Virus record (IMG/VR): IMGVR_UViG_3300010392_000686
Location: 1 to 30,835 of that record
Direction: 5' to 3' (one strand)
Length of the DNA stretch: 30,835 bases
Source of the DNA: a virus
This document shows positions 1 through 29,787 of this stretch, piece by piece (position 1 is the first letter of the stretch; every line of letters begins with the position of its first letter). The notes under the pieces are model-generated. The model was not told the origin of the DNA, ran no database searches, and saw nothing but the letters and a program-made list of their open reading frames with translations. Position numbers and translations under genes: made by a program.

Positions 1-935
<935 letters not shown>

Positions 936-2697: not shown

Positions 2698-3726
2698 ATG
2701 AAGCGCGCACACCCGCGGTCTCTGGCTCAGGCACAGGAGATCGCTCGACACCTGAACCTGATCGCCACCCACGATGGCGACGTCCGGCTCGACGCGGACG
2801 AGACGAACATGCTCGCGTTGGAGCTGGAGCAGATGCGCTCCCGCGTCTACGAAGCCGAGTACCCGGAGATGAAGGCGCGTCGCTTCATCCCGGTGACGAA
2901 CGAGATCGATCCCGGCGCGGAGTCGTTCTCGTACGAGGAGACGGACACCGTCGGCTCCGCCAAGGTGATCCGGAACATGGCGGACGACCCGCCCGCGGTC
3001 GAGACCAGCTCCGGCAAGATCACCCACTCCGTGGTCTCGCTCGGCGACTCCTGGACCTACTCGATCCAGGACATGCGGCGCGCCGCGTTCAGCGGTCGTC
3101 CGCTCTCCGCCCGCAAGGCGATCGGCGCCCGTCGGATCTGGGAGCGAGGTCTGGATCAGATCGCGGCTCTCGGGGCGCCGGACGACGGGATCCCGACCGG
3201 GCTCCTGAACAAGACCGTGGGCACGGGCGCGGGCCAGATCCGTGGCACCGCCATGACCCCCGCAAGCTGGCTCGCGTCGACGCGCTCCGCGGCGGGCATG
3301 GTCAACGATCTGAACAACGCAGTGGCGGCGCAGGTCACGGATTCGGCGGAGCTGTACACGCCGAACCTGCTCCTGCTCCCGACCGCGATCTACCTCGCGG
3401 CGGCGCACACCCGGATGAGCGCTGACAACTCGGAGACCGTGCTGGAGGCGTTCCTCCGCGCGAACCCGTACGTGGAGGACGTCCAGCCCTGGAACCTGCT
3501 CTCCGCCGTCGACGGGGCGAGCGGCAACAACTCGCGCGGCCTCCTGATGCGCCAGGATCCGGACGTCGTGGAGCTGGTGATCCCGCAGGAGTACGAGATC
3601 CTCCCCCCGCAGGCGCGGAACTACGCCTTCAAGGTGCTCGCGCACGGGCGCACCGCGGGATCGATCGTGTACCGCCCGCTGGGTCTCCGCTACCTCACTT
3701 CGCTGCCCGTCGATCCCACGCTCTAG
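2698..3726 (+). CDS. Major capsid protein (DUF2184-type)
   Basis: This 342-residue protein is the likely major shell subunit. The N-terminal half carries the pattern typical of DUF2184-family capsid proteins: a helical N-arm, then KARRFIPVTNEIDPGAESFSYEETD, then DSWTYSIQDMRRA and a long alpha helix with RKAIGARRIWERGLDQIAALG. The C-terminal half contains the PNLLLLPTAIYLAAAHT block and the final GSIVYRPLGLRYL strand. An AAAAAAGGA ribosome site precedes the ATG. A hairpin terminator follows the stop, as expected for a very highly expressed gene. A TCGTACGA palindrome lies immediately after the stop codon (3729-3736). Confidence 0.92.
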   Translation: MKRAHPRSLAQAQEIARHLNLIATHDGDVRLDADETNMLALELEQMRSRVYEAEYPEMKARRFIPVTNEIDPGAESFSYEETDTVGSAKVIRNMADDPPAVETSSGKITHSVVSLGDSWTYSIQDMRRAAFSGRPLSARKAIGARRIWERGLDQIAALGAPDDGIPTGLLNKTVGTGAGQIRGTAMTPASWLASTRSAAGMVNDLNNAVAAQVTDSAELYTPNLLLLPTAIYLAAAHTRMSADNSETVLEAFLRANPYVEDVQPWNLLSAVDGASGNNSRGLLMRQDPDVVELVIPQEYEILPPQARNYAFKVLAHGRTAGSIVYRPLGLRYLTSLPVDPTL

Positions 3727-3739
3727 GATCGTACGATCC

Positions 3740-5422: not shown

Positions 5423-5613
5423 GCGGGGACGAAGCGCGGTCCGTGCTGGCGGTGGGTAGGCCCCGCACGCGCGGGCGGCGCGGCCTCGCTCGTACGATCC
5501 TGGAGCGCTCTCTCCCGCCGCGCGTGCGGTACGCAGCCCCCGCGGAGGATGAGTCCGAGCCCGGCGGGCTCGTGCAGGATGCGCTCGACGCGGCGGGGGA
5601 GCTGATTCCGTGA
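5419..5613 (+). CDS. Small basic protein, unknown
   Basis: This gene encodes 64 residues. The start ATG 5419 overlaps the preceding stop (ATGA), and its stop overlaps the next start (GTGA), so both ends are fixed by coupling. The N-terminal half is basic (GRPRTRGRRGLARTILERSL) and the C-terminal part acidic, ending LVQDALDAAGELIP. No family was recognised. Placement suggests a small structural or assembly protein of the neck. Confidence 0.7.
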   Translation: MSGDEARSVLAVGRPRTRGRRGLARTILERSLPPRVRYAAPAEDESEPGGLVQDALDAAGELIP

Positions 5614-6077: not shown

Positions 6078-6628
6078 ACTTCGCAGGCTATCAAACGGCG
6101 CTCGTGGAGGCGGTCCAGACCGCGGCGGCGGATGCCGATCTGGACGTCTCGTGGGATGAGCGTGAGAGCGGATGGCGCTCCCCCTCGCACGTCAAGCTCT
6201 CCGTGGTGTCGATCGTACGACTCGGACGGGACGAGACGCGGCGCGAGGAGAGCGGCGCGGACGATCTCCAGGAACGGATCTACGGCCCCCGCCGTCTCAC
6301 GATCCAGCTCATGATCGAGACTGACGACGCGGACCTGTCGTCGTCGTCGTGGGAGCTGGCGGATCGGATCGCGGCGGGTCTCCGGCGGGAGGACGTCCGC
6401 GCCCTGCTCGACGCGGCGGAGCTTGGCGTGTCCACGATCGGCACAGCCCGCCCGCTCTCGTACCGCGACCCTCACGGGGACTGGCGGACGCCCGTGGCGG
6501 TGGAGCTGGCCCTGAACACGCACACGGCCCACGAAGGCGCCTTGATCGGCAAGGTTCGGAGCGTCGAGTTCTCCGGGGCCGTGGAGGACGGGCCCGACGT
6601 CGGACCCGTCACGGTGGCGGAATCCTGA
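6074..6628 (+). CDS. Neck / tail terminator protein (LIC_12616-like)
   Basis: This 184-residue protein begins at ATG 6074 (ATGA overlap with the gp10-like stop). It has an N-terminal helix with DEREGWRSPS-like spacing, then strands around LTIQLMIETD and a central SSSSWELADRIAAGL helix, and later STIGTARPLSYRDPHGDWRTPVAVELAL. This arrangement matches phage neck/tail terminator proteins, which cap the tube and sheath below the connector. Position directly before the sheath gene agrees. Confidence 0.8.
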   Translation: MNFAGYQTALVEAVQTAAADADLDVSWDERESGWRSPSHVKLSVVSIVRLGRDETRREESGADDLQERIYGPRRLTIQLMIETDDADLSSSSWELADRIAAGLRREDVRALLDAAELGVSTIGTARPLSYRDPHGDWRTPVAVELALNTHTAHEGALIGKVRSVEFSGAVEDGPDVGPVTVAES

Positions 6629-11286: not shown

Positions 11287-11621
11287 CGACTGCGCAGCAC
11301 ATCCCGACCCGCCCGCTACGCGCGGCGCAGTCGATCACGGTCACGCTCGACGGCGCAAGGTACCGCGTCGATCTGGACTGGAACGCCCGGATCGGGCGGT
11401 GGTTCCTCTCCCTGTTCGGGGCGTCGGGTTCGGCGATCGTACGATCGAAGGCGCTTGTGCTCGGCTCGGACCTGCTCCGCCAGGCGCGCCACTCCGAGGC
11501 GTGCCCGCGTGGGCTCCTGATCGTGCGGGACATGCAGGATCAGGACGCGGAAGCGTCCCTGGACTCTCTCGGGGTTCGGCACCGCCTGTACTTCGTGCCG
11601 CTCTCCGAGGTTGGGTTGTGA
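11283..11621 (+). CDS. Baseplate plug-like protein (Pam3 gp18-like)
   Basis: This 112-residue protein starts at ATG 11283, chosen over an upstream in-frame start because of the ATGA overlap. It matches the Pam3-type plug family (DUF6983): ITVTLDGARYRVDLDWNARI followed by GRWFLSLFG, a hydrophobic strand LVLGSDLLRQA, and the ending HRLYFVPLSE. In cyanophage Pam3 this protein plugs the tail tube at the baseplate. The small size and position between Dit-like and hub proteins agree. TCGTACGA (11437-11444) lies inside a 14-bp perfect palindrome here. Confidence 0.8.
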   Translation: MTTAQHIPTRPLRAAQSITVTLDGARYRVDLDWNARIGRWFLSLFGASGSAIVRSKALVLGSDLLRQARHSEACPRGLLIVRDMQDQDAEASLDSLGVRHRLYFVPLSEVGL

Positions 11622-12427: not shown

Positions 12428-13089
12428 CTCGTCCGCTCTCCACAGCCGAGACCCTTCGACGCGTGATCGAGTCGCACGCGCTGGATCTGCACGTGGCGCT
12501 GCCGGGCGTCGTTCGGTCGTACGATCACGAGACGCAGACGGCGGACGTGGAGCCGGGCGTCCAGCGCGTCCGGCCCGCGGAGGACGAAGACACGGACGCG
12601 GACTCGCCGGAGCGCCTCCCGGTGATCCCCGCCGTCCCCGTGGCCTGGCCTCGCGCGGGAGGTCACTTCGTGCACTGGCCGATGCAGGCGGGCGATTCTG
12701 TTCTGCTCGTCTTCTCGGAGTCCGACCTGAACGCCTGGCGGGAGAGCGGGGGCGTGGTGGATCCGGGGATCGGGGCACGCCATGGGCTCTCGGGCGCGAT
12801 CGCGATCCCGGGCCTGTACCCTCGGGCGGATGTGATCGCGAGCGCGGACGCGTCGAACGGCCGGATCGGGCGCGACGGAGGACACTACGTCGAGTTCCGG
12901 GCGGACGAGATCCGGATCGCGGGCGGAGAGGATCTCACCCTGGCGGACCCACTAGAGGCGCACTTGAAGGCGATCGAGCTAGCGCTTGGCACGATCGCCA
13001 CCGCGGCGGGAGCGGTGAACAGCTACGATCACGACGTCTTGTCCGCGGCGGGCTCGGACTACCGATCCGAGATCGCGAAAGGGGCTTGA
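12424..13089 (+). CDS. Baseplate spike, gp138/Mu gp45-like
   Basis: This 221-residue protein starts at ATG 12424 (ATGA). Residues about 21-112 form an OB-like domain of the gp138/gp45 type, with LPGVVRSYDHETQTADVEPGV and MQAGDSVLLVFSESDLNAW, followed by the conserved ARHGLSGAIAIPGLYP link. The C-terminal part continues with HYVEFRADEIRIAGGEDLTL, a beta-helix-like stretch that forms the trimeric spike, and ends in a helical tail. It would pierce the outer membrane. TCGTACGA occurs at 12517-12524. Confidence 0.86.
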   Translation: MTRPLSTAETLRRVIESHALDLHVALPGVVRSYDHETQTADVEPGVQRVRPAEDEDTDADSPERLPVIPAVPVAWPRAGGHFVHWPMQAGDSVLLVFSESDLNAWRESGGVVDPGIGARHGLSGAIAIPGLYPRADVIASADASNGRIGRDGGHYVEFRADEIRIAGGEDLTLADPLEAHLKAIELALGTIATAAGAVNSYDHDVLSAAGSDYRSEIAKGA

Positions 13090-14675: not shown

Positions 14676-15614
14676 ATGGCACTCCAGTTCAACAAAGTTG
14701 GCTCCGAGCCCGGGATCTCTGTCAATGAGACTCACGAAGCTTTTTTCGAGCTGAAAGCCGCGCTGAAAGCACAAGGCTGGACCGTGGCGCGTTCGTCCGA
14801 CGGAACGACGTACAACGCGGCGGGGGACCAGATCACGACCGCGGCTCATCTCGCGAACACGCGCGCCTGGTTCGAGATCGCGAACCCGGCGGGGACGGTC
14901 CATCTGACGTTCCAGCGCGTGAACGTCAACTATCAGTTCAGGATCAAGGTCTCCCCGTCCGCGTTCTCGTCGGGTTCCCCCGCCGCTACCGTCACCGGAT
15001 CCAGCACGAGCGAGACCGTGATCCAGGGCGGAGGCACGGACGCCAGCCCGACGGGAGGCACGCTCGGCGCCACGACGTCCACCGCGCGCGTCTATCAGAT
15101 CGCGGTGGACGACGCAGCGCCCTGGGGCTTCTACATGTGCGGGTATCGGAGCGCCGGTGCTACCGAAGATCTGACAATGTTCGTTGACCCGCTGCTCTCT
15201 GGATCGTACGATGCAACGGACGCGTTCCCGTTCGCGGTGTGTGTGGTAAGCAACCCCACGATCACGACGCTTACGACGTCAACCCCCACCTACCTGCACA
15301 CCCGGTACGGCTCGACGTGGCAGACGATCGGCGCCATGTCGACGGACGGATGGGGGAGCAGTTCTGCGGTGTTCCCCGGCGGGGTCGGAACGGACCCGAT
15401 CTCGGGGAGCGATCTCGTGCTGCCGTTCGTGTACGGGCGCGCCACGGGGCTCTCCGGCCCGAACGGATGGAAGGGGCTCAGTACCCTGTTCGAGCTTTCA
15501 GGCGCGATGCGCTCGAACGCGGACACCGCCACTGTGACAACGACCCGCGATCACATCTATCTGCTCGGCGGGGCTCTCCGCGCGGCCTGGAACGGCCAGA
15601 TCCCGGCGGTCTGA
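14676..15614 (+). CDS. Structural protein of the baseplate/fibre region, unknown
   Basis: This 312-residue protein was not recognised. Residues 1-70 look globular, with ELKAALKAQGWTVARSSDG. The rest is beta-rich and enriched in Thr/Ser/Gly, as in many virion surface proteins, with a GGTDASPTGGTLGATTST linker. It lies between baseplate J and a small Ig-like protein, the usual place of accessory tail or receptor-contact components. The start ATG 14676 follows the previous stop by 2 bp. TCGTACGA at 15204-15211 encodes Ser-Tyr-Asp. Confidence 0.7.
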   Translation: MALQFNKVGSEPGISVNETHEAFFELKAALKAQGWTVARSSDGTTYNAAGDQITTAAHLANTRAWFEIANPAGTVHLTFQRVNVNYQFRIKVSPSAFSSGSPAATVTGSSTSETVIQGGGTDASPTGGTLGATTSTARVYQIAVDDAAPWGFYMCGYRSAGATEDLTMFVDPLLSGSYDATDAFPFAVCVVSNPTITTLTTSTPTYLHTRYGSTWQTIGAMSTDGWGSSSAVFPGGVGTDPISGSDLVLPFVYGRATGLSGPNGWKGLSTLFELSGAMRSNADTATVTTTRDHIYLLGGALRAAWNGQIPAV

Positions 15615-16035: not shown

Positions 16036-16733
16036 GCACGGCAACCTACACCCTTCCCGGTTCAGGTCTCGGGGTCTCGGGCGTCTCCCCGGGAGGCTCC
16101 GCGGGCAACCTGGAACTGATCGCGGACCACTGCGCGGACGCGCTCGCGCTCCTGATCCCCGAGTACGACGAAGCGGTCCGCCTGCACGCCCTGATCTGCT
16201 CCTACCTGGAGCGGCTCCAGGAGATCGAAGGCGCAACGCTTGACGTGTGGTCGGACGTGCTCTCGATCGAGACCGCGGCGGGTGATCAGCTCGATCTGGT
16301 CGGGCAGATCGTGACGGAGGCTCGCAACGGACGGAGCGATGCGGTCTACCGCCTGGCGCTCCGAGTCCGCGTCTTGATCAACCGGAGCGAAGGGAGAGCC
16401 GAGGAACTGATCCAGATTGTGCGCCTGTTCGAGAGCCTGGCGGACGAGTCCGGATCCTACGTCCGGCTCCGGGAGGGTCCCGGACGCGTGATCGTCTCGA
16501 TCGTACGAACCCCCATCAACACGCCCGCCGCGGTCCACTCCCGGCTCCGGGACGCGCGCGCCGCTGCGATCGCGCTCCAGACCGTCACCACGCCCGTGGG
16601 GGACGGCTCCGGACCCTCCCGATCGTTCACGCTCTCGCGCGCGGCGGACTACCCCGAGGGCTCGACGGAGCGCGGGCTGGGCCGGACGGCGGACCCGTCG
16701 CACGGGGGCTATCTCCCGCACGTGCTAGACTGA
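16032..16733 (+). CDS. DUF2612-like baseplate / tail protein I-type
   Basis: This 233-residue protein starts at GTG 16032 (coupled start). The core YLERLQEIEGATLDVWSDVLSIE, GDQLDLVGQIVTEARNGRSDAVYRLALRVRVLINRSEG is characteristic of DUF2612, a baseplate component analogous to P2 gpI that links J to fibres. The C-terminus contains SYVRLREGPGRVIVSIVRTPINTP. The protein ends VLD-stop within a GTGCTAGACT box. Palindrome TCGTACGA lies at 16501-16508 (Val-Arg phase). Confidence 0.84.
   Translation: MSTATYTLPGSGLGVSGVSPGGSAGNLELIADHCADALALLIPEYDEAVRLHALICSYLERLQEIEGATLDVWSDVLSIETAAGDQLDLVGQIVTEARNGRSDAVYRLALRVRVLINRSEGRAEELIQIVRLFESLADESGSYVRLREGPGRVIVSIVRTPINTPAAVHSRLRDARAAAIALQTVTTPVGDGSGPSRSFTLSRAADYPEGSTERGLGRTADPSHGGYLPHVLD
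16722..16731 (+). promoter_or_regulatory. GTGCTAGACT box overlapping a stop
   Basis: The 10-bp box encodes VLD and the first base of the stop codon of the upstream gene, 6 bp before the fibre-like ATG at 16738. The same box occurs at 955, 6639 and 17965. With such short spacing to the ATG, a transcript starting here would be nearly leaderless. Confidence 0.35.
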
Positions 16734-16737
16734 CGTC

Positions 16738-17436
16738 ATGGCGAAGCCGAGCACGGATCCGACGTTCGCGACGGATGCCACGTACGCCCTAGACGGGGAC
16801 GCGTGGTCGGGGGCGAACACGAAGGTTGACCCTGGCGCGGCGCGCCGCGCGGAGGGCTGGGAGCCGGACCTGCTCCCCGCCGAGTGGCTCAACCACGAGA
16901 TGAACTCGCACGGGGAGCACATCTCGTACATCGAAGACGTGCTGGAGGCCACGGACACGATCCCGCTCGTGACCCGCACCCTGATCGTCCCCCTCGGGCT
17001 GTTCATGCCGGAGGACTCCGAGGCCGAATGGCATGGGGACTACTGGCTGTTCAACCGCTCCAGCGCCCCGAGCACGCGGTCTCTGACGCTGGAGCTGGGC
17101 CGGGTTCTCACGAGCGGCGCCACGCTCCAGACCGTCCGCGCGCTCGTGACTCCGGGCCTGGCCCGAGTCGCCGCAAGCCGCGTCCGGGTGAGTGTCGAGC
17201 GGAACACGACCCTTGACCTGGACACGCCCGCCGCGGGCGCGTGGGCCGCGATCAACGGGTACGACGAAGACGACGGAACGGCGACGATCCAGACGATCAC
17301 GCACACCCTGAACTACGGCCACACGTCGACCACGCCCGCGCGCGTGGTCGTACGATCGGGCGTGGGAGATCTCGGGGATGATCGCGTGTACGCGGTGGAG
17401 CTGGGCTTCAATGATCCGGGCCCGCGGAGCTTTTGA
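16738..17436 (+). CDS. Tail fibre-like protein
   Basis: This 232-residue protein opens with a module common in tail fibres of many phages: KPSTDPTFATDATYALDGDAWSG, then TKVDPGAARRAEGWEPDLLPAEWLNHEMN, which forms the attachment domain. The remainder is beta-rich and threonine-rich, without a chaperone domain. It is the last structural gene before the lysis set, as is usual. Host range could be determined by this short fibre, although no receptor is known. TCGTACGA lies at 17348-17355. Confidence 0.82.
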   Translation: MAKPSTDPTFATDATYALDGDAWSGANTKVDPGAARRAEGWEPDLLPAEWLNHEMNSHGEHISYIEDVLEATDTIPLVTRTLIVPLGLFMPEDSEAEWHGDYWLFNRSSAPSTRSLTLELGRVLTSGATLQTVRALVTPGLARVAASRVRVSVERNTTLDLDTPAAGAWAAINGYDEDDGTATIQTITHTLNYGHTSTTPARVVVRSGVGDLGDDRVYAVELGFNDPGPRSF

Positions 17437-18279: not shown

Positions 18280-18710
18280 GCGGCCCCGATCGTACGATGC
18301 TAGCGATCATGGCTGCGGCCCTGATCGCGATCGCGACGCTCTCCGGGTGTTCGCCGGACGCCCGCCAGGCCGCGCTCTCGGGCGCGGCGGACGTGGTCCA
18401 GACCACGAAGGCGCGACGCGATGCGTTCTACCACGAGCGCGCGGAGCACTGCCTGGCGGCGGCGGAGACGTTCGACGCCTGGCGCGAGTGCTTCGCCCCC
18501 GCGTCCGGTCTCGGGCGCGCGGTGGACGTGTTCGTGGACGCCCTCCGAGCGGCGCAGGAAGCGCACGACGCGGGGGAGGCGGACGGGTTCACTGCGAAGG
18601 CGCGGGAGCTAGTCCAGGCCGCGGTTCACGTGGTCAACGCGTTCTCAACCGCCGGGCTTGAAGTGCCCGCCGCGGTGCTCCAGGTGGCCGCTTTCGCGGG
18701 GGAGATCTGA
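18276..18710 (+). CDS. Lipoprotein of unknown function
   Basis: This 144-residue protein starts at ATG 18276 (ATGA overlap). It has a lipoprotein signal (AIMAAALIAIATLSG followed by Cys25) and a mature helical domain with two further Cys. It is the second lipoprotein in the cassette. Its size is larger than typical o-spanins, so a superinfection-exclusion or envelope-interaction role is equally possible. The palindrome TCGTACGA lies at 18290-18297, inside the signal peptide region. Confidence 0.72.
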   Translation: MSGPDRTMLAIMAAALIAIATLSGCSPDARQAALSGAADVVQTTKARRDAFYHERAEHCLAAAETFDAWRECFAPASGLGRAVDVFVDALRAAQEAHDAGEADGFTAKARELVQAAVHVVNAFSTAGLEVPAAVLQVAAFAGEI

Positions 18711-19037: not shown

Positions 19038-19861
19038 TCCGGCCCGAGGACGTCCGCGGGGCCGTGCGCCACGTGCTGGACGAGCACGCTGGCGCGTGCC
19101 GTCCGGAGCATCTCCTGATCGCGGACGCGGTCGTCAACCGCCTGGCGCCCCGCATTCCCGAGGGCGCGGGCCTGTTCGTCCGAGACCTGGACGATCTGGA
19201 CCCCGAGACCGCGGCGCGCTGGCTCCCGTGGGTGGCGGTCTGCGTCTCAGTCGAGGATCGCAAGACGAACCGGAGCCGCGCGTGGTTCGAGCGCTACCAG
19301 CGCGCGGGCGGGCGCGTGGCGGTCTGGACCTGGTTCTCCACGGACGCGGACGTGATCTCCGAGGCGATCGCGTTCGGGGCGTCCGTGGGCGCGCTCTGGT
19401 ACGTCCTGAACGGGGAGAAGGAGCTGCGCGGGCGCCACGCCCTGGCGCGCCGGCTTGCAGCGCACGCGCGATCCTCGTGCGACCAGCACGGGCTGGGCTT
19501 CGGCCTCGTGTCGTACTCCGTCGCGCACACGGTCCGGGACTTCCCCTGGCGGGCGTTCGCCGATCTCTGCGACTTTGGCATGCCCGAGATCTACGATCGG
19601 CGGGGGTCGTACGATCCGGACTATCCGCGGATCGCGATCGAGTCCTGGCGGGACGAAGGCTTCCGCCGGATCGTGCCCGCGTGCGGGATCTACGTCCGGC
19701 GCGCGGCGGGGGGCTGGCGCTGGCGGACCGCGGCGGAGATCCTCCGCCACGTGGGCCTGTTCCCGTCCGAGCACCGCGGCGCGATCTGCGCTTGGCCGAT
19801 CGGCACGAAGGGTCAGATGCCCGAGAGCGCCCTGATCGCGCTCTCGGGCGCCGTGGGCTAG
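19034..19861 (+). CDS. TIM-barrel glycosidase-like protein (endolysin candidate)
   Basis: This 275-residue protein has a small N-terminal helical domain (1 to about 45) and then successive strands matching a TIM barrel: VAVCVSVED, GRVAVWTWFS, ALWYVLNGEKE, LGFGLVSYS, FGMPEIYDRRG, RIVPACGIYV and GAICAWPIGT. E128, E130 and E185 are possible catalytic acids. Its position after the membrane and lipoprotein genes suggests it is the peptidoglycan-degrading lysin. No standard lysozyme motif was identified, so the activity is inferred from fold and context. Start GTG 19034 overlaps the preceding stop. The stop shares CTAG with the convergent gene. Confidence 0.72.
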   Translation: MIRPEDVRGAVRHVLDEHAGACRPEHLLIADAVVNRLAPRIPEGAGLFVRDLDDLDPETAARWLPWVAVCVSVEDRKTNRSRAWFERYQRAGGRVAVWTWFSTDADVISEAIAFGASVGALWYVLNGEKELRGRHALARRLAAHARSSCDQHGLGFGLVSYSVAHTVRDFPWRAFADLCDFGMPEIYDRRGSYDPDYPRIAIESWRDEGFRRIVPACGIYVRRAAGGWRWRTAAEILRHVGLFPSEHRGAICAWPIGTKGQMPESALIALSGAVG

Positions 19862-20271
19862 TCGTAATCGAGCCAGAGCGCATCCTCCGCGCACTCGTCG
19901 GACTCCAGACGGTCCGTGTGGCAGTCCGAGCACTCCGCGTCCTCGGGCCCGTCCAGAGTCAGGATCTCCGTCGCGCACGTCGCGCACGGAAGGGTCCGCC
20001 CGAGGTAGCAGGCATCCCAAGCCGCGCGGCCCTCGGAAGTCATCGGAGCGGCGAACCACTCTCCCAGCCCCTCCGTGGGGGAGACGTCACCGGCCTGCTC
20101 GCGCGCCACGTCCGTGTCCGAGATGACGTAGAAGTGGATCAGCCCGAGGATGCGCATCGGCGCTTCGTCCAGGACGGTGATCGTCTCCCCGTCCACCATG
20201 CGGAAGCGGGCGCCGGGCTCCGGGACGTGGGAGCCTTCGTGAAGGGTCCAGGGTGCGGTGATCTTGCTCAT
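19858..20271 (-). CDS. Zinc-ribbon protein, unknown
   Basis: This 137-residue protein has a beta-type N-terminal domain (residues 10-50, GARFRMVDGETITVLDEAPMR and FYVISDT) and a C-terminal zinc ribbon with C96-x2-C99 and C114-x2-C117 (CATCAT then CSDCH), ending in an acidic tail. Such proteins can be small regulators or adaptors of early phage proteins. It is transcribed from its own promoter (20314-20342) and convergent with the TIM-barrel gene. Function is unknown. Confidence 0.78.
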   Translation of the reverse strand: MSKITAPWTLHEGSHVPEPGARFRMVDGETITVLDEAPMRILGLIHFYVISDTDVAREQAGDVSPTEGLGEWFAAPMTSEGRAAWDACYLGRTLPCATCATEILTLDGPEDAECSDCHTDRLESDECAEDALWLDYD

Positions 20272-20313: not shown

Positions 20314-20342
20314 ACCTTAGATCGTACGACCGCCGGAGTCAA
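20314..20342 (-). promoter_or_regulatory. Promoter for the zinc-ribbon gene, palindrome in spacer
   Basis: On the minus strand TTGACT (20342-20337) is followed after exactly 17 bp by TAAGGT (20319-20314), a good -35/-10 arrangement. The TCGTACGA palindrome (20322-20329) lies within the spacer, where a protein binding it could block RNA polymerase. An AGGA ribosome site precedes the gene start at 20271. Confidence 0.6.
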
Positions 20343-20356
20343 GCGCCCGGATCAAG

Positions 20357-20391
20357 AAAAAGCCCCGGCTCGTGGTGGGCCGGGGCTTTTT
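20357..20391. terminator. Bidirectional rho-independent terminator
   Basis: A 13-bp stem (20357-20369 with 20379-20391) has A5 on one flank and T5 on the other, with a 9-nt loop. It would end leftward transcription of the methyltransferase unit and insulate the zinc-ribbon promoter. It is the best terminator in the window. The rest of the 20272-20450 gap holds only the promoter. Confidence 0.92.
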
Positions 20392-20450
20392 CGGGTCGGG
20401 CTCTCGCTGAAAAGCCCTATGGGTCCGGGAGCTTGGGTGTTGCTTCGCTG

Positions 20451-21125
20451 CTAGACGTTCCTCGTTTGACCTGAACCGAACAGCTCGGACACCATGTCCG
20501 AGCGTGCCTCACCGCCCGGGAGAAGCCTCCCGTGCGCTCCGAAGACTGCGGCGAACAAGCGCCACCGCGGCCCCCGGTAGAAGAAAGTCACGGCAGAGTT
20601 GTTCCCGCCGCGCACCTTGCCGGTCTCCGGATCGATGAACTGGATCCGGCTCCGGAGCGTAGCAGACCGCCAGTCTAGGCGCAAGTGCTGCGCCTCGTGA
20701 ATGCGATCGAACCATGACGAGTCCGTGCGCGTGGGCACGAGGCTGATCAGCTCCCCGCGGTGGCGGGCGATCTTCTCGGCCCAGCCCACGCCGCGCCCGA
20801 GCACTCTGCCCTCGCGCTTCACGATCTTGCCGGGATCCACCTTGCCGGGCTTGCCTAGGTGCGCGCCCCAGGGCGGGTTGACGAACCCGGGGAGATCCTC
20901 GGGCCACGGGTCCGAGAGCCCGCACAGGCCTGCGTGCACGCCCGCGCCCACTCTCTCGGGCGTGGTCGGGCTCCAGAACAGACGGGCTCCCGTGGGGTTC
21001 TCGGGCGCGCTCGCGGGGTCAAACCCGATCGGGAACACGAGCCGGACGAGATCCAGTATGTAGCTCGGGGTCTGCCAGTCGGACGCCCCCGGCGCGTTGT
21101 GCTCTTTCGGCGTGACGTGCCCCAC
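20451..21125 (-). CDS. Phage N6-adenine DNA methyltransferase (Dam-type)
   Basis: This 224-residue protein matches the phage Dam family (PF05869). Evidence includes SDWQTPSYILDLVRLVFPIGFDPASAPEN near residues 15-43 and the catalytic NPPW tetrad at about residues 83-86 (GFVNPPWG). The SAM-binding function of the first block is inferred from the family. It transfers methyl groups to adenine N6. Its target site cannot be seen from the sequence. Start GTG overlaps the preceding gene's TAG by one base. The gene sits at the end of a leftward unit that stops at the hairpin 20357-20391. Possible roles are anti-restriction or marking of phage DNA. Confidence 0.88.
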   Translation of the reverse strand: MGHVTPKEHNAPGASDWQTPSYILDLVRLVFPIGFDPASAPENPTGARLFWSPTTPERVGAGVHAGLCGLSDPWPEDLPGFVNPPWGAHLGKPGKVDPGKIVKREGRVLGRGVGWAEKIARHRGELISLVPTRTDSSWFDRIHEAQHLRLDWRSATLRSRIQFIDPETGKVRGGNNSAVTFFYRGPRWRLFAAVFGAHGRLLPGGEARSDMVSELFGSGQTRNV

Positions 21126-21421: not shown

Positions 21422-21787
21422 ATGAGCAAGAACGAGGCTGAATCGGACAAGTTCCCGGGCGTGTTCGAGGGACAGGAGATCCGGCGATCGTACGACTCGG
21501 AGGGCGTGGCCTGGATCTGCGCGCGGGACATGGGGCGGGCTCTAGACTATCCGAGCGACGGAGGCAACCTGTCCCGGAACTTCCGCCACGTCTCGGAGTG
21601 GCGCGAGGCGTTCGATCTGGGGACGGACTACGTCCAGGACGAGCGCGGGCGGATCTGGCTCTCGCCTCACGGCGTGCTGCAGACCCTACGGATGATCGTG
21701 GCGGTCGAGCGCCAGGACCGGGCGGACGCGGCGGAGGAACTGCTCCGGCGCTGGTGGCGGAACATCCGCCGCGCCCGCGCTGCCTAG
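21422..21787 (+). CDS. Bro-N domain protein (antirepressor-like)
   Basis: This 121-residue protein consists almost entirely of a Bro-N domain, typical of phage antirepressors and DNA-binding regulators: FEGQEIRRSYDSEGVAWICARDMGRALDYPSDGGNLSRNFRHVSEW and an ending with VLQTLRMIVAVERQD and a tryptophan-rich helix. The usual C-terminal second domain is missing, so it may act by itself. It is the only rightward gene in the early region, between leftward units, and its stop overlaps that of the convergent gene in CTAG. This isolated orientation suggests separate control. Confidence 0.85.
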   Translation: MSKNEAESDKFPGVFEGQEIRRSYDSEGVAWICARDMGRALDYPSDGGNLSRNFRHVSEWREAFDLGTDYVQDERGRIWLSPHGVLQTLRMIVAVERQDRADAAEELLRRWWRNIRRARAA

Positions 21788-23224: not shown

Positions 23225-23709
23225 CCTCTTGTCCTTTCGCATCCTGATCTACTCGTGCGGCGGAGAGCGTACAGGCCCAAACCCACCGCGTCAAGAACTT
23301 CCTTCGCGTGCGCCCCCGCCCCCGCCGCCGCGCGGTCCACGATCTCGCGCTCGTTCCCGGAGAGCGCGGACCGGATCCGGACGTGGTGGACGCGCTTGGG
23401 GATCGAACCCTTCCAGCGCGAGGGCGGGAGCAGACTCACGCGCAAGGCCACGAGCCCCGCCACTGCGCAGCCCACCGCCTGGACGCGGAGCAGATCGGCG
23501 GGCTGGCTCTCGACGCGGCCCGGGCGGATCTCCATCTCCTCGACAACCGCCCGATCGGCGCCAATCCCGAGCGCCCGCGCGTGCGCGTCGATCTGACCGT
23601 CGCTCGTGCGCTCGATCGTACGACTCACACCACACGAGACAAGCCTGCCCTCGGGCGTGAACCGCGCCCATCCGAGCGCCTTCGTCCCCGGATCGATCGC
23701 GACCAGCAC
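23221..23709 (-). CDS. RuvC-like Holliday-junction nuclease
   Basis: This 162-residue protein has the RuvC pattern: IDPGTKALGWA at residues 5-15 (D6), VVEEME at 55-60 (E57 or E58), and HAKEVLDAVGLGLYAL at about 134-149 (H134, D140), together forming the acidic active-site set. The SRWKGSIPK motif of phage RuvC-like nucleases is present at 97-105. It would resolve junctions or branched DNA before packaging. Start GTG 23709 overlaps the preceding TAG. TCGTACGA at 23616-23623 encodes Arg-Thr. Confidence 0.87.
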   Translation of the reverse strand: MLVAIDPGTKALGWARFTPEGRLVSCGVSRTIERTSDGQIDAHARALGIGADRAVVEEMEIRPGRVESQPADLLRVQAVGCAVAGLVALRVSLLPPSRWKGSIPKRVHHVRIRSALSGNEREIVDRAAAGAGAHAKEVLDAVGLGLYALRRTSRSGCERTRG

Positions 23710-24236
23710 TAGCGGATCTCCAGTCGCGCGATCTCGTCCAGGAACGCGGCGCGCGCCGCGGTCGGGCTCCAGGGCGTGATCGCGATGTGGTAGGGCACCG
23801 CGGGCAGATCCAGCGGGGGATCTTGCAGGTACAGAGACTCCGTCGCGAGCATGCGCGCGTCGACCATCTCCACCGCCGGATCGAGATCGTGGGGGATCTG
23901 GAAGCGGCGCCGGACCGCGTCTCGTACGATCCACTCCAGCGCATCCCAGGACGAGCCGAGAGCGCCCTTGACGGGCGTGGGCACGTCCCCCACGTACGCC
24001 TCTTGTGCGTCGTGCAAGAGCCCCTGCACCTGCACGCCGCGCCCGAAGCCCTCGCTCTGGAGCACGCGCGCGACTAGGACAGAGTGCTGCGCCACGCTGT
24101 AGAACTCGCGACAATGGCCGTTGAACCTGCACAGGTTTGATAGCGCGTGCGCGACGTCGGAGACGAGCACGTCCCCCGCCCTCGGCTGGTTCAGGTCAAA
24201 CGCTACTCCGCTCGCGGTCTGTATCCAGTGACTCAT
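23709..24236 (-). CDS. HD-domain phosphohydrolase
   Basis: This 175-residue protein is an HD hydrolase: IAH-like DVAHALSNLCRFNGH at 27-41, the motif H75-D76 with E79 (LLHDAQEA), and D127, the last conserved metal ligand (VEMVDARMLATE). HD enzymes of this size act as phage dNTP phosphohydrolases; the dATPase DatZ of cyanophage S-2L is of the same size and fold. Specificity cannot be told from sequence alone. The start overlaps the Nudix stop (ATGA). Confidence 0.87.
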   Translation of the reverse strand: MSHWIQTASGVAFDLNQPRAGDVLVSDVAHALSNLCRFNGHCREFYSVAQHSVLVARVLQSEGFGRGVQVQGLLHDAQEAYVGDVPTPVKGALGSSWDALEWIVRDAVRRRFQIPHDLDPAVEMVDARMLATESLYLQDPPLDLPAVPYHIAITPWSPTAARAAFLDEIARLEIR

Positions 24237-24649: not shown

Positions 24650-26688
24650 GCCGCTGCCCTGATCCTCTCCTCTTCGAACCCGAACGCCCACGAGAGATGG
24701 ATCGGATCGGCTCCCGCGTCAAGCGCTTCTCGGATCTTTTCTGCGGTCTCGGGATGCATCGTACGATCCTCGTACGGGATCAGGCGCCCGGTCTCGTCGT
24801 ACGTCGGCTCCGCGCCCTTGCGCCAGCGGTAGGAGATCGCAGGCTCCGCGGCGGGGGGCGCGTCCGGACACCAGAGCCGGCCCGAGGTCTCCATGATCTC
24901 GACCATGCGCGCGGCGCAGTCGTGCATCGTCGGGATCGGGACTTCCGCGATGTACTCGTCATGTACGAAGTTCCACGGGCGCGCCTCGTTCAGCGGTCCG
25001 CGGTCCGCTCCGTAGAACTCGCGCGTAAGGCTCCAGCCCGCGTGCTTCGCCATGTCCGCGGTATGGCCCTGGAAGTACGAGTTCGCGGCGGACGTGTACC
25101 GCAGATCTCCGCGGAGCCGATCGGACATGAAGTGTCTAAGCGGCTGTCCCGTCTCCAGTAGCGCGTTGATGTGCTGGAAGTAGCCCCCCATCTCGGAATA
25201 GAGGCGGAACCACCACGCCCGCAGCTCCCGCGCCTCATCGTCCGTGAGGATCACGCCGTAGGTCTTGGCTGCGTAGAGGCGGAACTTCTCGACTCCGAGC
25301 CCGCCCGGGAAACCGAAGTTGGCCGCCTTCCCGCCCTGGCGCGCCTCCTTCGCCGCGCGCTTGGCGTCCGGACCGTGCGAGCCCTGTAGCGCCTCCATGG
25401 CCCACTCGTACTCCCACGAGCGCATGTGGGCGCCAAAGTTCATGTGCGCATCGCGGCCCGAGTTCAGGACCGCCCCGAGATCGCTCCCGAGTCCGAGCCA
25501 TGTGCAGACCTGAGAGAGCGAGTGCAGTTCCGCCGCGCGCCAGTCCACGGAGACGAGCACATAGCCCGGGCGTGCCACGTAGCACTCCCGGAGTCCCGGC
25601 TCACGGTTCAAGTTCTGGACTTGATCCCCGAACGACGCAAGCGGCTTTCCGGGCTTTACGTCCCCCATGGAGCTTGATGTTCGTCCCGTGTTCTTGAGCA
25701 CGTCGAAGAACGGCTGGATCGGGATCTCCCCCGCCAGCGCGAGCCGTTCCGCGCGCCGCCGCAACGTTCCAACCGACGTGTAGCGCGCGTAAGCTATCAG
25801 GATCTCGTCCCCCGTAGCAGCGCACGCGTCCGCGTCCAGGGCGGTGTATTTCTCCTCGGCTTCCGCGCGCTCGATCTCGCCTTCGTGGACGCGCCGCCGC
25901 CCCGTTTTCGTCAGCGGGATCGGGAGCCCCGCCGCGCTCCGCTCCAGTCGCATTCGCTCCGAGGCCCGCTTCGTGTTCTTGCTCCCGTCGGATCGTACGA
26001 GCCCCGCGATCTGGAGCCTCGCGCGGACGTCCTCGTGCTCGATCTCGACCTTGCGCGCGAACGCAGCAACCGCCCGGGCGTCGGTGCGCATGCCGCGGCA
26101 GCGCTGGAGATAGAGCGAGAAGCCCGCGCGCGCCTGGCGGTGCTCGTCTCGGAGGCACTCCGCGCGCGCCTCCTGTGCCTCGTACAGCGCGGAGACGTCC
26201 AGGTCCGCCAGAGCATACCGGCGCGCGTCCTCGGGCCAGAGATCGACCGCTAAGCCGTCCAGCTCCGCGTACCGCGTCCGCCACGAGCCCGGACCCTTGC
26301 TCTTGTCCCCCGCCTCGAACATGTGGGGGATCTTGTGGCGCTCTAGGCACGTCATGAGCCCGTGCGCCTGGAAGCGCGCCGCGGTGCCTTGCGCGATCCG
26401 GAGCAGCTTCTCCCGCAGCTCCGTGCACGTGACGCGATCGTCTGTGTAGGCGTCGAGCCAGAGCGGTAGCAGGCGCGGGCGGCTTGCGATCGTGCACGCC
26501 GCGTCGAAGGCGACGTTATGCCCTACGATGCGCGCGCCTCCGAGCAGCGCGCTCTCCAGCCGATCTAGTCCCGCCTCCCGCAGCTCGATCCGGTCTCCGG
26601 TCTCGTCGCGGGACTGGACGCAGACGACGCGGGGCGCCTGGCGCCCGGGCCTGATCGGGTAGGTCTCCGTGTCGAAGAACAGAATCAC
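24646..26688 (-). CDS. Family A DNA polymerase with 3'-5' exonuclease
   Basis: This 680-residue replicative polymerase has an N-terminal proofreading domain with exonuclease motifs D6/E8 (FDTETY), N58...D62 (HNVAFD) and D164 (ADLDVSALYE), then the polymerase domain. Motif A is VDWRAAEL (D382, E387). Motif B has R450, K454 and F458 in GKAANFGFPGG, at the same spacing as the E. coli Pol I O helix, but with Gly at the usual Tyr. Motif C is VHDE (H576, D577, E578). All catalytic residues are present. It lacks a 5' nuclease domain, as phage enzymes do. GTG start overlaps the upstream stop as GTGA. Two TCGTACGA copies lie inside. Confidence 0.95.
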   Translation of the reverse strand: MILFFDTETYPIRPGRQAPRVVCVQSRDETGDRIELREAGLDRLESALLGGARIVGHNVAFDAACTIASRPRLLPLWLDAYTDDRVTCTELREKLLRIAQGTAARFQAHGLMTCLERHKIPHMFEAGDKSKGPGSWRTRYAELDGLAVDLWPEDARRYALADLDVSALYEAQEARAECLRDEHRQARAGFSLYLQRCRGMRTDARAVAAFARKVEIEHEDVRARLQIAGLVRSDGSKNTKRASERMRLERSAAGLPIPLTKTGRRRVHEGEIERAEAEEKYTALDADACAATGDEILIAYARYTSVGTLRRRAERLALAGEIPIQPFFDVLKNTGRTSSSMGDVKPGKPLASFGDQVQNLNREPGLRECYVARPGYVLVSVDWRAAELHSLSQVCTWLGLGSDLGAVLNSGRDAHMNFGAHMRSWEYEWAMEALQGSHGPDAKRAAKEARQGGKAANFGFPGGLGVEKFRLYAAKTYGVILTDDEARELRAWWFRLYSEMGGYFQHINALLETGQPLRHFMSDRLRGDLRYTSAANSYFQGHTADMAKHAGWSLTREFYGADRGPLNEARPWNFVHDEYIAEVPIPTMHDCAARMVEIMETSGRLWCPDAPPAAEPAISYRWRKGAEPTYDETGRLIPYEDRTMHPETAEKIREALDAGADPIHLSWAFGFEEERIRAAA

Positions 26689-27197
26689 CGCGCGACCCCC
26701 CGCCCCTTACGACACGCCTTGCAGTGCGGTTGCCGTCCGTCGCGGTGCGCGCGGCTTCGGTGGTAGGCTTCCAGCGGCTTCGGCTCCGAGCACTTCCCGC
26801 ACACCTTGCGGGCCGCGTCAATCGGATTCTCACGGCTCCATTCGAGCAGGTTCGCGTACCACTCCGCGGCGGACGGGAGATCGTCCGGGTGTCCCGCCTT
26901 GCGCCACCACGCGAGGAACGCGTCCAGGCTCTCCCGGAGCTGCGCCCGGAACGCGGACGCGGTCACGGACGTGGCGGACGAGCCCGGGAGACGACACCGT
27001 CTCTCCGCCGCTGGCCAGTAGTCCCGGGACCCGCACTTGAGGCACTCTTGCGGACTGTCCGAGTCCCCGGGCTCGCTCCAGTCGTGCGTCTCGTGGAGAT
27101 CTAGGGGCTTCTCGGGGTCGTACGATCCAGCGGGATCAGCTTCGGCTCGCTCGATCGATATCGCATGGTTAATTGCGGCGAGATCTGATGTGTCCAC
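26685..27197 (-). CDS. Two-zinc-finger protein, HNH/endonuclease VII-like
   Basis: This 170-residue protein has an N-terminal Cys cluster (C52-x2-C55, then C68) and a C-terminal finger CGKCSEPKPLEAYHRSRAHRDGRQPHCKACRK (C133-x2-C136, C159-x2-C162), common next to HNH and endonuclease VII-like nucleases. The catalytic nuclease core is not obvious, so it may be DNA-binding only. It precedes the polymerase gene in the same coupled unit. Its GTG start is directly adjacent to a structured leader that can occlude the ribosome site. TCGTACGA at 27118-27125 encodes Ser-Tyr-Asp. Confidence 0.78.
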   Translation of the reverse strand: MDTSDLAAINHAISIERAEADPAGSYDPEKPLDLHETHDWSEPGDSDSPQECLKCGSRDYWPAAERRCRLPGSSATSVTASAFRAQLRESLDAFLAWWRKAGHPDDLPSAAEWYANLLEWSRENPIDAARKVCGKCSEPKPLEAYHRSRAHRDGRQPHCKACRKGRGVAR

Positions 27198-28050: not shown

Positions 28051-29787
28051 TTACGTGACCTTGACCCATTGCGGTCCGGTCCTCTCGCGCGTCGTCTCCA
28101 GATCTTCGACGTCCTCCAGGTCCGCGTGACACAGCTTTTGTGCCTGTCCTGTGACGTCCTCCGCATACTCCGAGTCTTCGACCGCGCGCCAGAAACCCTG
28201 GGAATCTTCGACACAGCCGAATAGCACGTCTACGTGAACGGCGCCAGCTTTTTGTCCGTCGCGGTGCGTCCGCCCGAGTAGCTGTTCCCATTTCGCCCCG
28301 TTCGGCGGGACGTCAACGATCAGGTTCCTGTGCCATGCCTGGAGATTGCGCCCCGTGGCGTTCGCCTCGATCGAGACGACCGCCGGCCCGGACGCGGGGG
28401 CGTGCGACTCTAGCACGCGCCCCGTGCTCGCGTCAACCCCCATGTTCCCGTAGTACGGGAGTCCGTGGCGCGCCGCCAGGCGCTCCCCGATCGCGGGGCG
28501 CTCCGTCCAGATCAGGGGCGCGCTCGGTTGCTTGGCTGCCCACGCCGCGATCCAGTCGATCGTACGATCTGAGATCCAGACCGCTTCCGCGTTCGGCTTG
28601 AAGGTGGGCTCGATCGCGAGCCAGTCCGCCAACGTGCGCGCGGCGTGGGGGTAGTCCCCCGCCTCCACCGCGCGCCTGACCTGCAGCTCCGTGTCGAGCT
28701 GGCGCTTGTTGTTCGAGAGGATCTCCCGGCAGAGAGAAGCCCACGCGCGGCGCGCGTCCCGCCAGTCGTCTGGCGGGCGCGGGTTCCATCGCGAGAAGAA
28801 CCCGGACGCCAGCTCCCGCGCGTGCCTCCACATGGCCACGCCGTCCTCGATCGGCCACTCGTCCGGCGTGCTCCAGTCGTTTCGGAGCGTCTCGTACAGG
28901 TCCACGTGATCGGGGTCCAGCTCCACCGCGTGGGAGCGCACGACGAGATCGATCGGGAGCGGCGGATCCTGAGTCGCGACCACGCCCGGGCTCTCCAGCA
29001 TGCGGCGCCGGAAGGCCACTCGGAGCGGCTCCGCGGGCGTGCGTCGAAGGCGCCCGAGAGCGCCCGGGGCAAGGCGCCTGCTCGGATGGACGTTCACGTC
29101 CAGCGCCCGAGACCACTCGTCAAGATCGTTGAACTCTGTGGGGGTCGGGTTGTTCCCGCGGAGAGCCCACGACGAGAGATGCGCGAAGTCTCGGATCGAG
29201 CGCTTCGTGATCGTCCCGCTCATGGCCACGAACGCGCACGAGATCTCGCCCCGGTACGCGCGGCGCATGTAGCGCGCGAGCCGCTTTGTGCAGGCCGCGC
29301 TCCCGTTCTTGAGGTAGTGCGCTTCGTCCGCGATGATGAGGTCCGGCTCGTACTGCTCGATCAGATCCTTTCCCGAGATCCGGGAGAGGGTCTGGTACGA
29401 CTCGACGCGGACGAACGCGGGCAGGATCCAGTGCTTCCGCAGCTCCGTCTTCTCGCGCTCCGTCTTCTCCCGGAGATGCGCGGGAACGAGGACGAGCGGG
29501 CGCTTGACGCCCGGGAGCACGCGCGCCGCTAGCAGAGAGATCAGGGTCTTGCCTCCGCCCACGCGGATCGGGAACAGCCCGCCTTGCCACTGCGCGATCT
29601 CGGAGAGCGCTACGCCCTGGATCGGGCGGAGGCTCATCTGCCCGCGCGGCGTGCGCAGCGCTTGGGTCCAGCGCGCGGCCCACTCCGCCGCGCTCTCGGG
29701 CGTCCAGATCCGGCGCGGGATCGCTTCCACGCGTCGCAGCTCCGACGTGTCTTGTACGGCCCCGCGGCCGGTTCCGAACGCCCCCAT
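28051..29787 (-). CDS. SNF2-like helicase / DNA translocase
   Basis: This 578-residue protein is a superfamily 2 ATPase: Walker A GGGKT (77-81), motif II DEAH (154-157), motif III SGT (190-192), and motif VI QLLGRTHRDGQ (about 502-512). An N-terminal RPIQGVALSEI segment matches the Q-type motif. A helical insertion rich in Arg and Trp (about 310-400) separates the two ATPase lobes. It probably unwinds or remodels DNA during replication. It is a probable partner of the polymerase. TCGTACGA lies at 28560-28567. Confidence 0.92.
   Translation of the reverse strand: MGAFGTGRGAVQDTSELRRVEAIPRRIWTPESAAEWAARWTQALRTPRGQMSLRPIQGVALSEIAQWQGGLFPIRVGGGKTLISLLAARVLPGVKRPLVLVPAHLREKTEREKTELRKHWILPAFVRVESYQTLSRISGKDLIEQYEPDLIIADEAHYLKNGSAACTKRLARYMRRAYRGEISCAFVAMSGTITKRSIRDFAHLSSWALRGNNPTPTEFNDLDEWSRALDVNVHPSRRLAPGALGRLRRTPAEPLRVAFRRRMLESPGVVATQDPPLPIDLVVRSHAVELDPDHVDLYETLRNDWSTPDEWPIEDGVAMWRHARELASGFFSRWNPRPPDDWRDARRAWASLCREILSNNKRQLDTELQVRRAVEAGDYPHAARTLADWLAIEPTFKPNAEAVWISDRTIDWIAAWAAKQPSAPLIWTERPAIGERLAARHGLPYYGNMGVDASTGRVLESHAPASGPAVVSIEANATGRNLQAWHRNLIVDVPPNGAKWEQLLGRTHRDGQKAGAVHVDVLFGCVEDSQGFWRAVEDSEYAEDVTGQAQKLCHADLEDVEDLETTRERTGPQWVKVT

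Follow-up and report, generated by a model that had tools for sequence, protein, structure and literature searches.

Palindromic sites that lie inside genes can be read by a DNA-organising protein, as is the case for Noc/NBS, MatP/matS and ParB/parS. The closest working model for the set of sites described here is provided by HIP1 and the alternate HIPs (highly iterated palindromes) of cyanobacteria (GCGATCGC, GGCGCC, TCGATCGA and others; Elhai 2015, PMC4390886), lineage-specific palindromic octamers that lie within genes at ~1 per kb and go together with methyltransferases. HIPs are known features of host genomes, where they reach densities of ~500-2500 per Mb, and the repair model put forward by Elhai predicts saturation at ~1 site per kb (PMC4390886). 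What highly iterated palindromes are for has been an open question ever since HIP1 was described in 1995.

The DNA analysed here, referred to throughout as the window, is a 30.8-kb fragment of a contractile-tailed phage (69% GC; the contig is incomplete). It contains 22 copies of the palindromic octamer TCGTACGA, corresponding to 713 per Mb or 0.71 per kb, and one of these, at 20322, occupies the spacer of a promoter-like pair. The first-pass annotation proposed that this placement might reveal the dispersed copies as operators. The reading preferred here, to which a probability of roughly 45% is attached, is that the copy at 20322 belongs to a genome-wide, lineage-specific, HIP-like palindrome that is made and kept by a DNA process tied to methylation, and that the copies are not promoter operators.

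Gene content and the promoter-like pair

Head and tail genes occupy the plus strand up to 19861, and include those for a Mu F-like protein, a DUF2213 protein, a PF09950 capsid and a DUF3383 sheath. The minus strand, from 30729 downwards, carries the genes for polymerase A, a helicase, nucleases, nucleotide enzymes and a methyltransferase. The last of these matches phrog_111 (E=7.9e-15) and, with a score below the Pfam cut-off (23.8 bits against 28.1; E=3.9e-5), PF05869; its NPPW motif fits the catalytic pattern (D/N)PP(Y/W/F), and its AlphaFold model was unusable (pLDDT 31). The minus-strand block also harbours a lone plus-strand gene, without counterpart in relatives, for a protein that had been called Bro-N. 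As a tentative one, this call survives: the PHROG anti-repressor family is matched with E=0.017, and the top Foldseek matches are Bro-N proteins (best E=2e-3, from a modest model with pLDDT 61), while a Pfam search gave no match. A tblastn search of the phage collection returned no relatives of either the methyltransferase or the Bro-N-like protein, and neither a repressor nor an integrase was recognised in the window.

A gap of 179 bp separates the methyltransferase gene, which ends at 20451, from gene 20271-19858; read leftwards, it contains first a terminator and then the promoter-like pair. The latter had been described as TTGACT and TAAGGT, 17 bp apart on the minus strand, with a palindrome copy between them, and this is borne out at 20342-20314, where the minus-strand sequence is CGC-TTGACT-CCGGCGGTCGTACGATC-TAAGGT-CCC, with precisely 17 bp between the hexamers. 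Measured against consensus, the pair is weak (8/12 positions), and a promoter scan with a threshold of 9/12 did not call it. Seven pairs of the same quality occur in the whole window, with 3.9 expected. Finding such a pair in the minus strand of the 179-bp gap has P~0.013 by a strict post-hoc criterion, and finding any pair of at least 8/12 there has P~0.12.

The terminator has the features of an intrinsic one, namely a GC-rich hairpin and then a U run, with fold z values of -5.16 on the minus and -5.23 on the plus strand; this strong predicted terminator separates the leftward operon from gene 20271-19858. With the terminator upstream, the gene would otherwise be promoterless, and needs a promoter of its own. 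The -10 element lies 43 nt upstream of its ATG, which is preceded by AGGA; together with the terminator, these features make a promoter at 20342-20314 credible, plausible and well placed as judged from the sequence, despite the poor -10 and the mildly significant consensus test. For the Cys-rich protein encoded by this gene, family searches gave no match, and tblastn of the phage collection gave no relative. Elsewhere, between 15 and 25 kb, the promoter closest to consensus is TTGACC-17-TACGAT at 15184-15212 (9/12); the -10 hexamer of this match is supplied by a TCGTACGAT copy within a structural gene.

Table 1. Positions of palindrome copies, promoter and terminator elements and selected genes in the window; the last three rows refer to contigs of related phages.
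Feature	Position	Strand	Remarks
TCGTACGA copy	266..273		
TCGTACGA copy	979..986		codons 2-4 of gene 975
TCGTACGA copy	2929..2936		capsid gene
TCGTACGA copy	3729..3736		intergenic, 2 bp past capsid stop codon
TCGTACGA copy	5490..5497		
TCGTACGA copy	6213..6220		
TCGTACGA copy	11437..11444		
TCGTACGA copy	12517..12524		homologous codons in relatives G006 and G002 also TCGTACGA
TCGTACGA copy	15204..15211		
TCGTACGA copy	16501..16508		
TCGTACGA copy	17348..17355		
TCGTACGA copy	18290..18297		
TCGTACGA copy	19607..19614		
TCGTACGA copy	20322..20329		within spacer of promoter-like pair
TCGTACGA copy	21488..21495		in Bro-N-like gene
TCGTACGA copy	23616..23623		
TCGTACGA copy	23922..23929		
TCGTACGA copy	24759..24766		polymerase gene
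TCGTACGA copy	25993..26000		polymerase gene
TCGTACGA copy	27118..27125		start of gene 26685-27197; possibly intergenic
TCGTACGA copy	28560..28567		helicase gene
TCGTACGA copy	30453..30460		
Gene served by putative promoter	19858..20271	-	137-aa Cys-rich protein, CxxC pairs, zinc-ribbon-like by eye
-10-like hexamer TAAGGT	20314..20319	-	3/6 to TATAAT, has TAnnnT
-35-like hexamer TTGACT	20337..20342	-	5/6 to TTGACA
Bidirectional intrinsic terminator (predicted)	20356..20392		arms 20356-20369 and 20379-20392, 14 bp each; A/T tracts on both sides
Orphan DNA methyltransferase (putative Dam family)	20451..21125	-	PF05869, phrog_111, motif NPPW
Bro-N-like (anti-repressor) protein	21422..21787	+	PHROG anti-repressor and Foldseek
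Orphan methyltransferase of G002	L009 10967-11479		
Orphan methyltransferase of G004	L189 1703-2563		
Orphan methyltransferase of G006	L193 4059-5042		

Distribution and spacing of the palindrome

The 22 copies compare with 0.46 expected from dinucleotide shuffles (none of 100 shuffles reaches 22), with ~0.8 expected from a model in which the sites are masked, and with 5.5 expected (z=7) under a null that preserves every protein and the codon usage. Genes contain twenty of the 22; both gene strands and every reading frame are represented. SYD, VVR and RT codons can encode TCGTACGA, but nothing of weight speaks for a compositional or coding artefact; the excess over the protein- and codon-preserving null, together with the use of all frames, refutes it and leaves it a negligible probability.

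Only two copies had been placed outside genes, one of them just behind the capsid gene, and this holds (3729 and 20322); a third, at 27118, would be added if gene 26685-27197 starts after its first GTG. Two wholly intergenic copies, with 0.67 expected, do not amount to a significant intergenic enrichment (P=0.14), and no significant excess was found within 60 bp of start codons (5 of 22, P=0.41). A start-codon-associated signal was also considered at a distance of up to 90 bp, and was rejected as unconvincing (10 of 22, P=0.06); a Chi-like or orientation-dependent signal is ruled out because the site is a palindrome.

The residues encoded by the copies are identical in relatives at 16 of 38 positions, with 19 expected, which is no higher than conservation in the rest of the genes, and the homologous places in relatives mostly encode different residues. 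Together with the use of all frames, this indicates that TCGTACGA is kept at the level of DNA and not of protein. The boundary of the octamer is sharp; versions with one mismatch are near background (24, with ~18 expected), with 9 against 7.2 expected at the outer position and 14 against 8.2 at position 4. The site is therefore all-or-none, unlike a degenerate set of operators.

Copies are also spaced apart, in a nearly even scatter. The gap between neighbours is at least 713 bp in 20 of 21 cases, and the finding of a single gap below 700 bp has P~1e-5, for a threshold that was picked after seeing the data. Tested against random placement, P is 2e-5 for the second-smallest gap and 4e-4 for the mean log gap; one 5.2-kb gap dominates the Greenwood statistic, which does not reach significance (P=0.35). 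The flanks tend to extend the palindrome, with GATC at 24 of 44 half-sites (background ~18%) and at least one side touching GATC in 20 of the 22 copies.

Related phages and candidate hosts

Relatives of the phage, which are tailed phages recognised by capsid (44-73%) and sheath (56-65%) identity or by polymerase identity (31-53%), each hold 0-1 copies of TCGTACGA. Those referred to individually are contig sets, namely G001 (L007 and L008), G002 (L009 and L010), G003 (L185 and L186), G004 (L187-L189) and G006 (L192 and L193). CTCGAG (XhoI) and GAGCTC (SacI) are totally absent from the window, G001 and G006, with 12-18 and 6-23 copies expected in the three; this strong shared signature suggests that the three experience similar restriction pressure and probably live in similar hosts. 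As G001 and G006 share the avoidance signature and yet hold 0-1 copies of TCGTACGA, the palindrome is not a plain host property, and a cause in the window's phage is more likely than one in a host common to them all. In the window, there is also a shortage of CGGCCG and GCCGGC, and GAGCTC is almost missing from G002-G004 as well.

G002-G004 have 0-1 copies of TCGTACGA but are rich in CTCGAG. The immediate flanks of this hexamer are complementary in 68 cases in G003 (31 expected), 79 in G004 (37 expected) and 42 in G002 (28 expected), with both G..C and C..G pairs; positions farther out show no covariation. Codon pairs (CTC GAG) were rejected as the whole explanation, since the flanks covary. 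These phages carry a different iterated palindromic octamer, CTCGAG with complementary flanks. Its copies are randomly spaced; those of G003 and G004 show no mutual avoidance, so the repulsion seen for TCGTACGA is not general. Orphan methyltransferases are encoded in the window, G002, G004 and G006; they are Dam-type in the first two and N6_N4_Mtase in the others, and in three of the four (window, G002 and G004) the gene lies near the same exonuclease gene. Because G002 and G004 share CTCGAG while their methyltransferase families differ, methyltransferase and palindrome do not track in a simple manner.

The palindrome could in principle be a signature of the host, that is, a HIP of the host genome acquired by the phage. 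HIPs are known from host genomes (PMC4390886), and, of the prophage sheath matches found, a Myxococcota genome has the best (E=3.7e-77, ~33% identity). All prophage-like sheath matches in the samples of Myxococcota, Alphaproteobacteria and Gammaproteobacteria are nevertheless distant relatives only (at most ~33% identity), and a sheath-alignment scan of genome contigs found nothing. A comparison of tetranucleotide composition with named genomes favoured no host clearly. TCGTACGA reaches at most ~44 per Mb in the genomes examined, as compared with 713 per Mb in the window, and the extended 14-mer occurs 0-1 times per genome in 264 Myxococcota genomes. Added to these figures is the lack of TCGTACGA in relatives that share the restriction-avoidance signature, and a host origin is regarded as improbable. 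A scan of genome contigs for the 14-mer GGATCGTACGATCC gave single matches among those listed, except for one Bacillus contig (Bacillus sp. FJAT-44742, L079), which has three sites inside 1.6 kb. Among viral contigs, the scan revealed no second enriched phage; those that have the 14-mer show no enrichment, apart from a tandem array in an unrelated one (L018:350-720), which consists of ~35-bp repeats with TTGGATCGTACGATCCAA-type inverted repeats.

Possible roles of the dispersed copies

If the copies were dispersed operators or stoperators, a phage repressor would bind the palindromes, block initiation at 20322 and stop elongation elsewhere. Of the operator proposal, the geometry and the promoter context are credible, with one copy indeed in a promoter spacer, and a Bro-N-like protein is encoded. 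As with the stoperators of cluster A mycobacteriophages (PMC6550527, PMC9283540), there are ~20-30 scattered copies, one of them at a promoter, of a motif that varies among relatives; a total of 22 in 31 kb is of a similar order to the cluster A figure, which goes up to 30 (PMC6550527), and motifs that differ between related phages would also suit divergent immunity systems. The set as a whole does not favour an extension to all copies. The stoperator motif of cluster A is 13 bp long and asymmetric, and mostly points one way relative to transcription, whereas the core in the window is a perfect palindrome inside genes, with copies on both transcription strands and no orientation signal. The copies are not concentrated at promoters or between genes (2 of 22, no more than chance); they use all frames, have a sharp boundary without a clear excess of near-misses, keep apart from each other, and are as frequent in late structural genes as in early ones. 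Moreover, a palindrome of just 8 bp is short for a repressor operator, and no repressor or integrase was recognised in this incomplete contig. The spacer copy hints only weakly at a set of operators, and this reading is considered unlikely.

In-gene dispersion, regular spacing and a perfect palindrome with graded flanks would suit architectural or partition-type sites, evenly spaced and bound by a DNA-organising protein according to the logic of Noc, MatP or ParB. However, the site density in the window is much higher than in those systems, no such protein was recognised in this incomplete contig, and TCGTACGA sites are missing from relatives that have the same genes for replication; an architectural role is also considered unlikely.

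The HIP-like reading draws on the promoter-terminator anatomy, the over-representation, the presence in genes in all frames, the sharp boundary, the repulsion, the absence from close relatives and the methyltransferase. In density, indifference to frame, flank extension and spacing, the set agrees with the cyanobacterial model. TCGTACGA octamers would arise and persist through a DNA-level process linked to DNA methylation. The simplest route would involve the phage's own orphan, putatively Dam-family methyltransferase, which we infer to recognise TCGTACGA, and a presumed process of repair or protection that reaches over ~1 kb. Most probably, the copy at 20322 is just part of the scatter, as the overall density would lead one to expect; it would lie between the -35 and -10 of a real, ordinary promoter, that of gene 20271-19858, largely by chance, and methylation or binding at this position could still modulate the promoter. 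A further-reaching version is possible but doubtful: each tailed phage of the group would have its own iterated octamer, as a phage counterpart of HIPs, and an interchangeable orphan methyltransferase, here with ~1-kb coverage and with one promoter brought under methylation or binding control.

A phage genome of ~30 kb with HIP-level density, whose relatives have either no such palindrome or another one, would be a much smaller system, and one more open to testing, than the genome of a cyanobacterium. There is also a note of caution in this case; where an octamer is found everywhere, a copy of it in a promoter spacer should not be taken for an operator.

The set differs from HIP1 in several respects. 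It belongs to a phage and not to a cyanobacterial genome, its sequence is TCGTACGA, its copies are spaced apart, and its one-off sites show no excess at the outer positions, which is where those of HIP1 mostly deviate. It resembles HIPs in being a palindromic octamer at HIP-level density, located in coding and non-coding DNA and in any frame, in that the palindromes differ between lineages, and in that a methyltransferase is encoded in the same genome; like HIP1, it has palindromic flank extensions, in this case to GATC. On the basis of these comparisons, the TCGTACGA set would be classed not as a member of HIP1, but as one that works like it.
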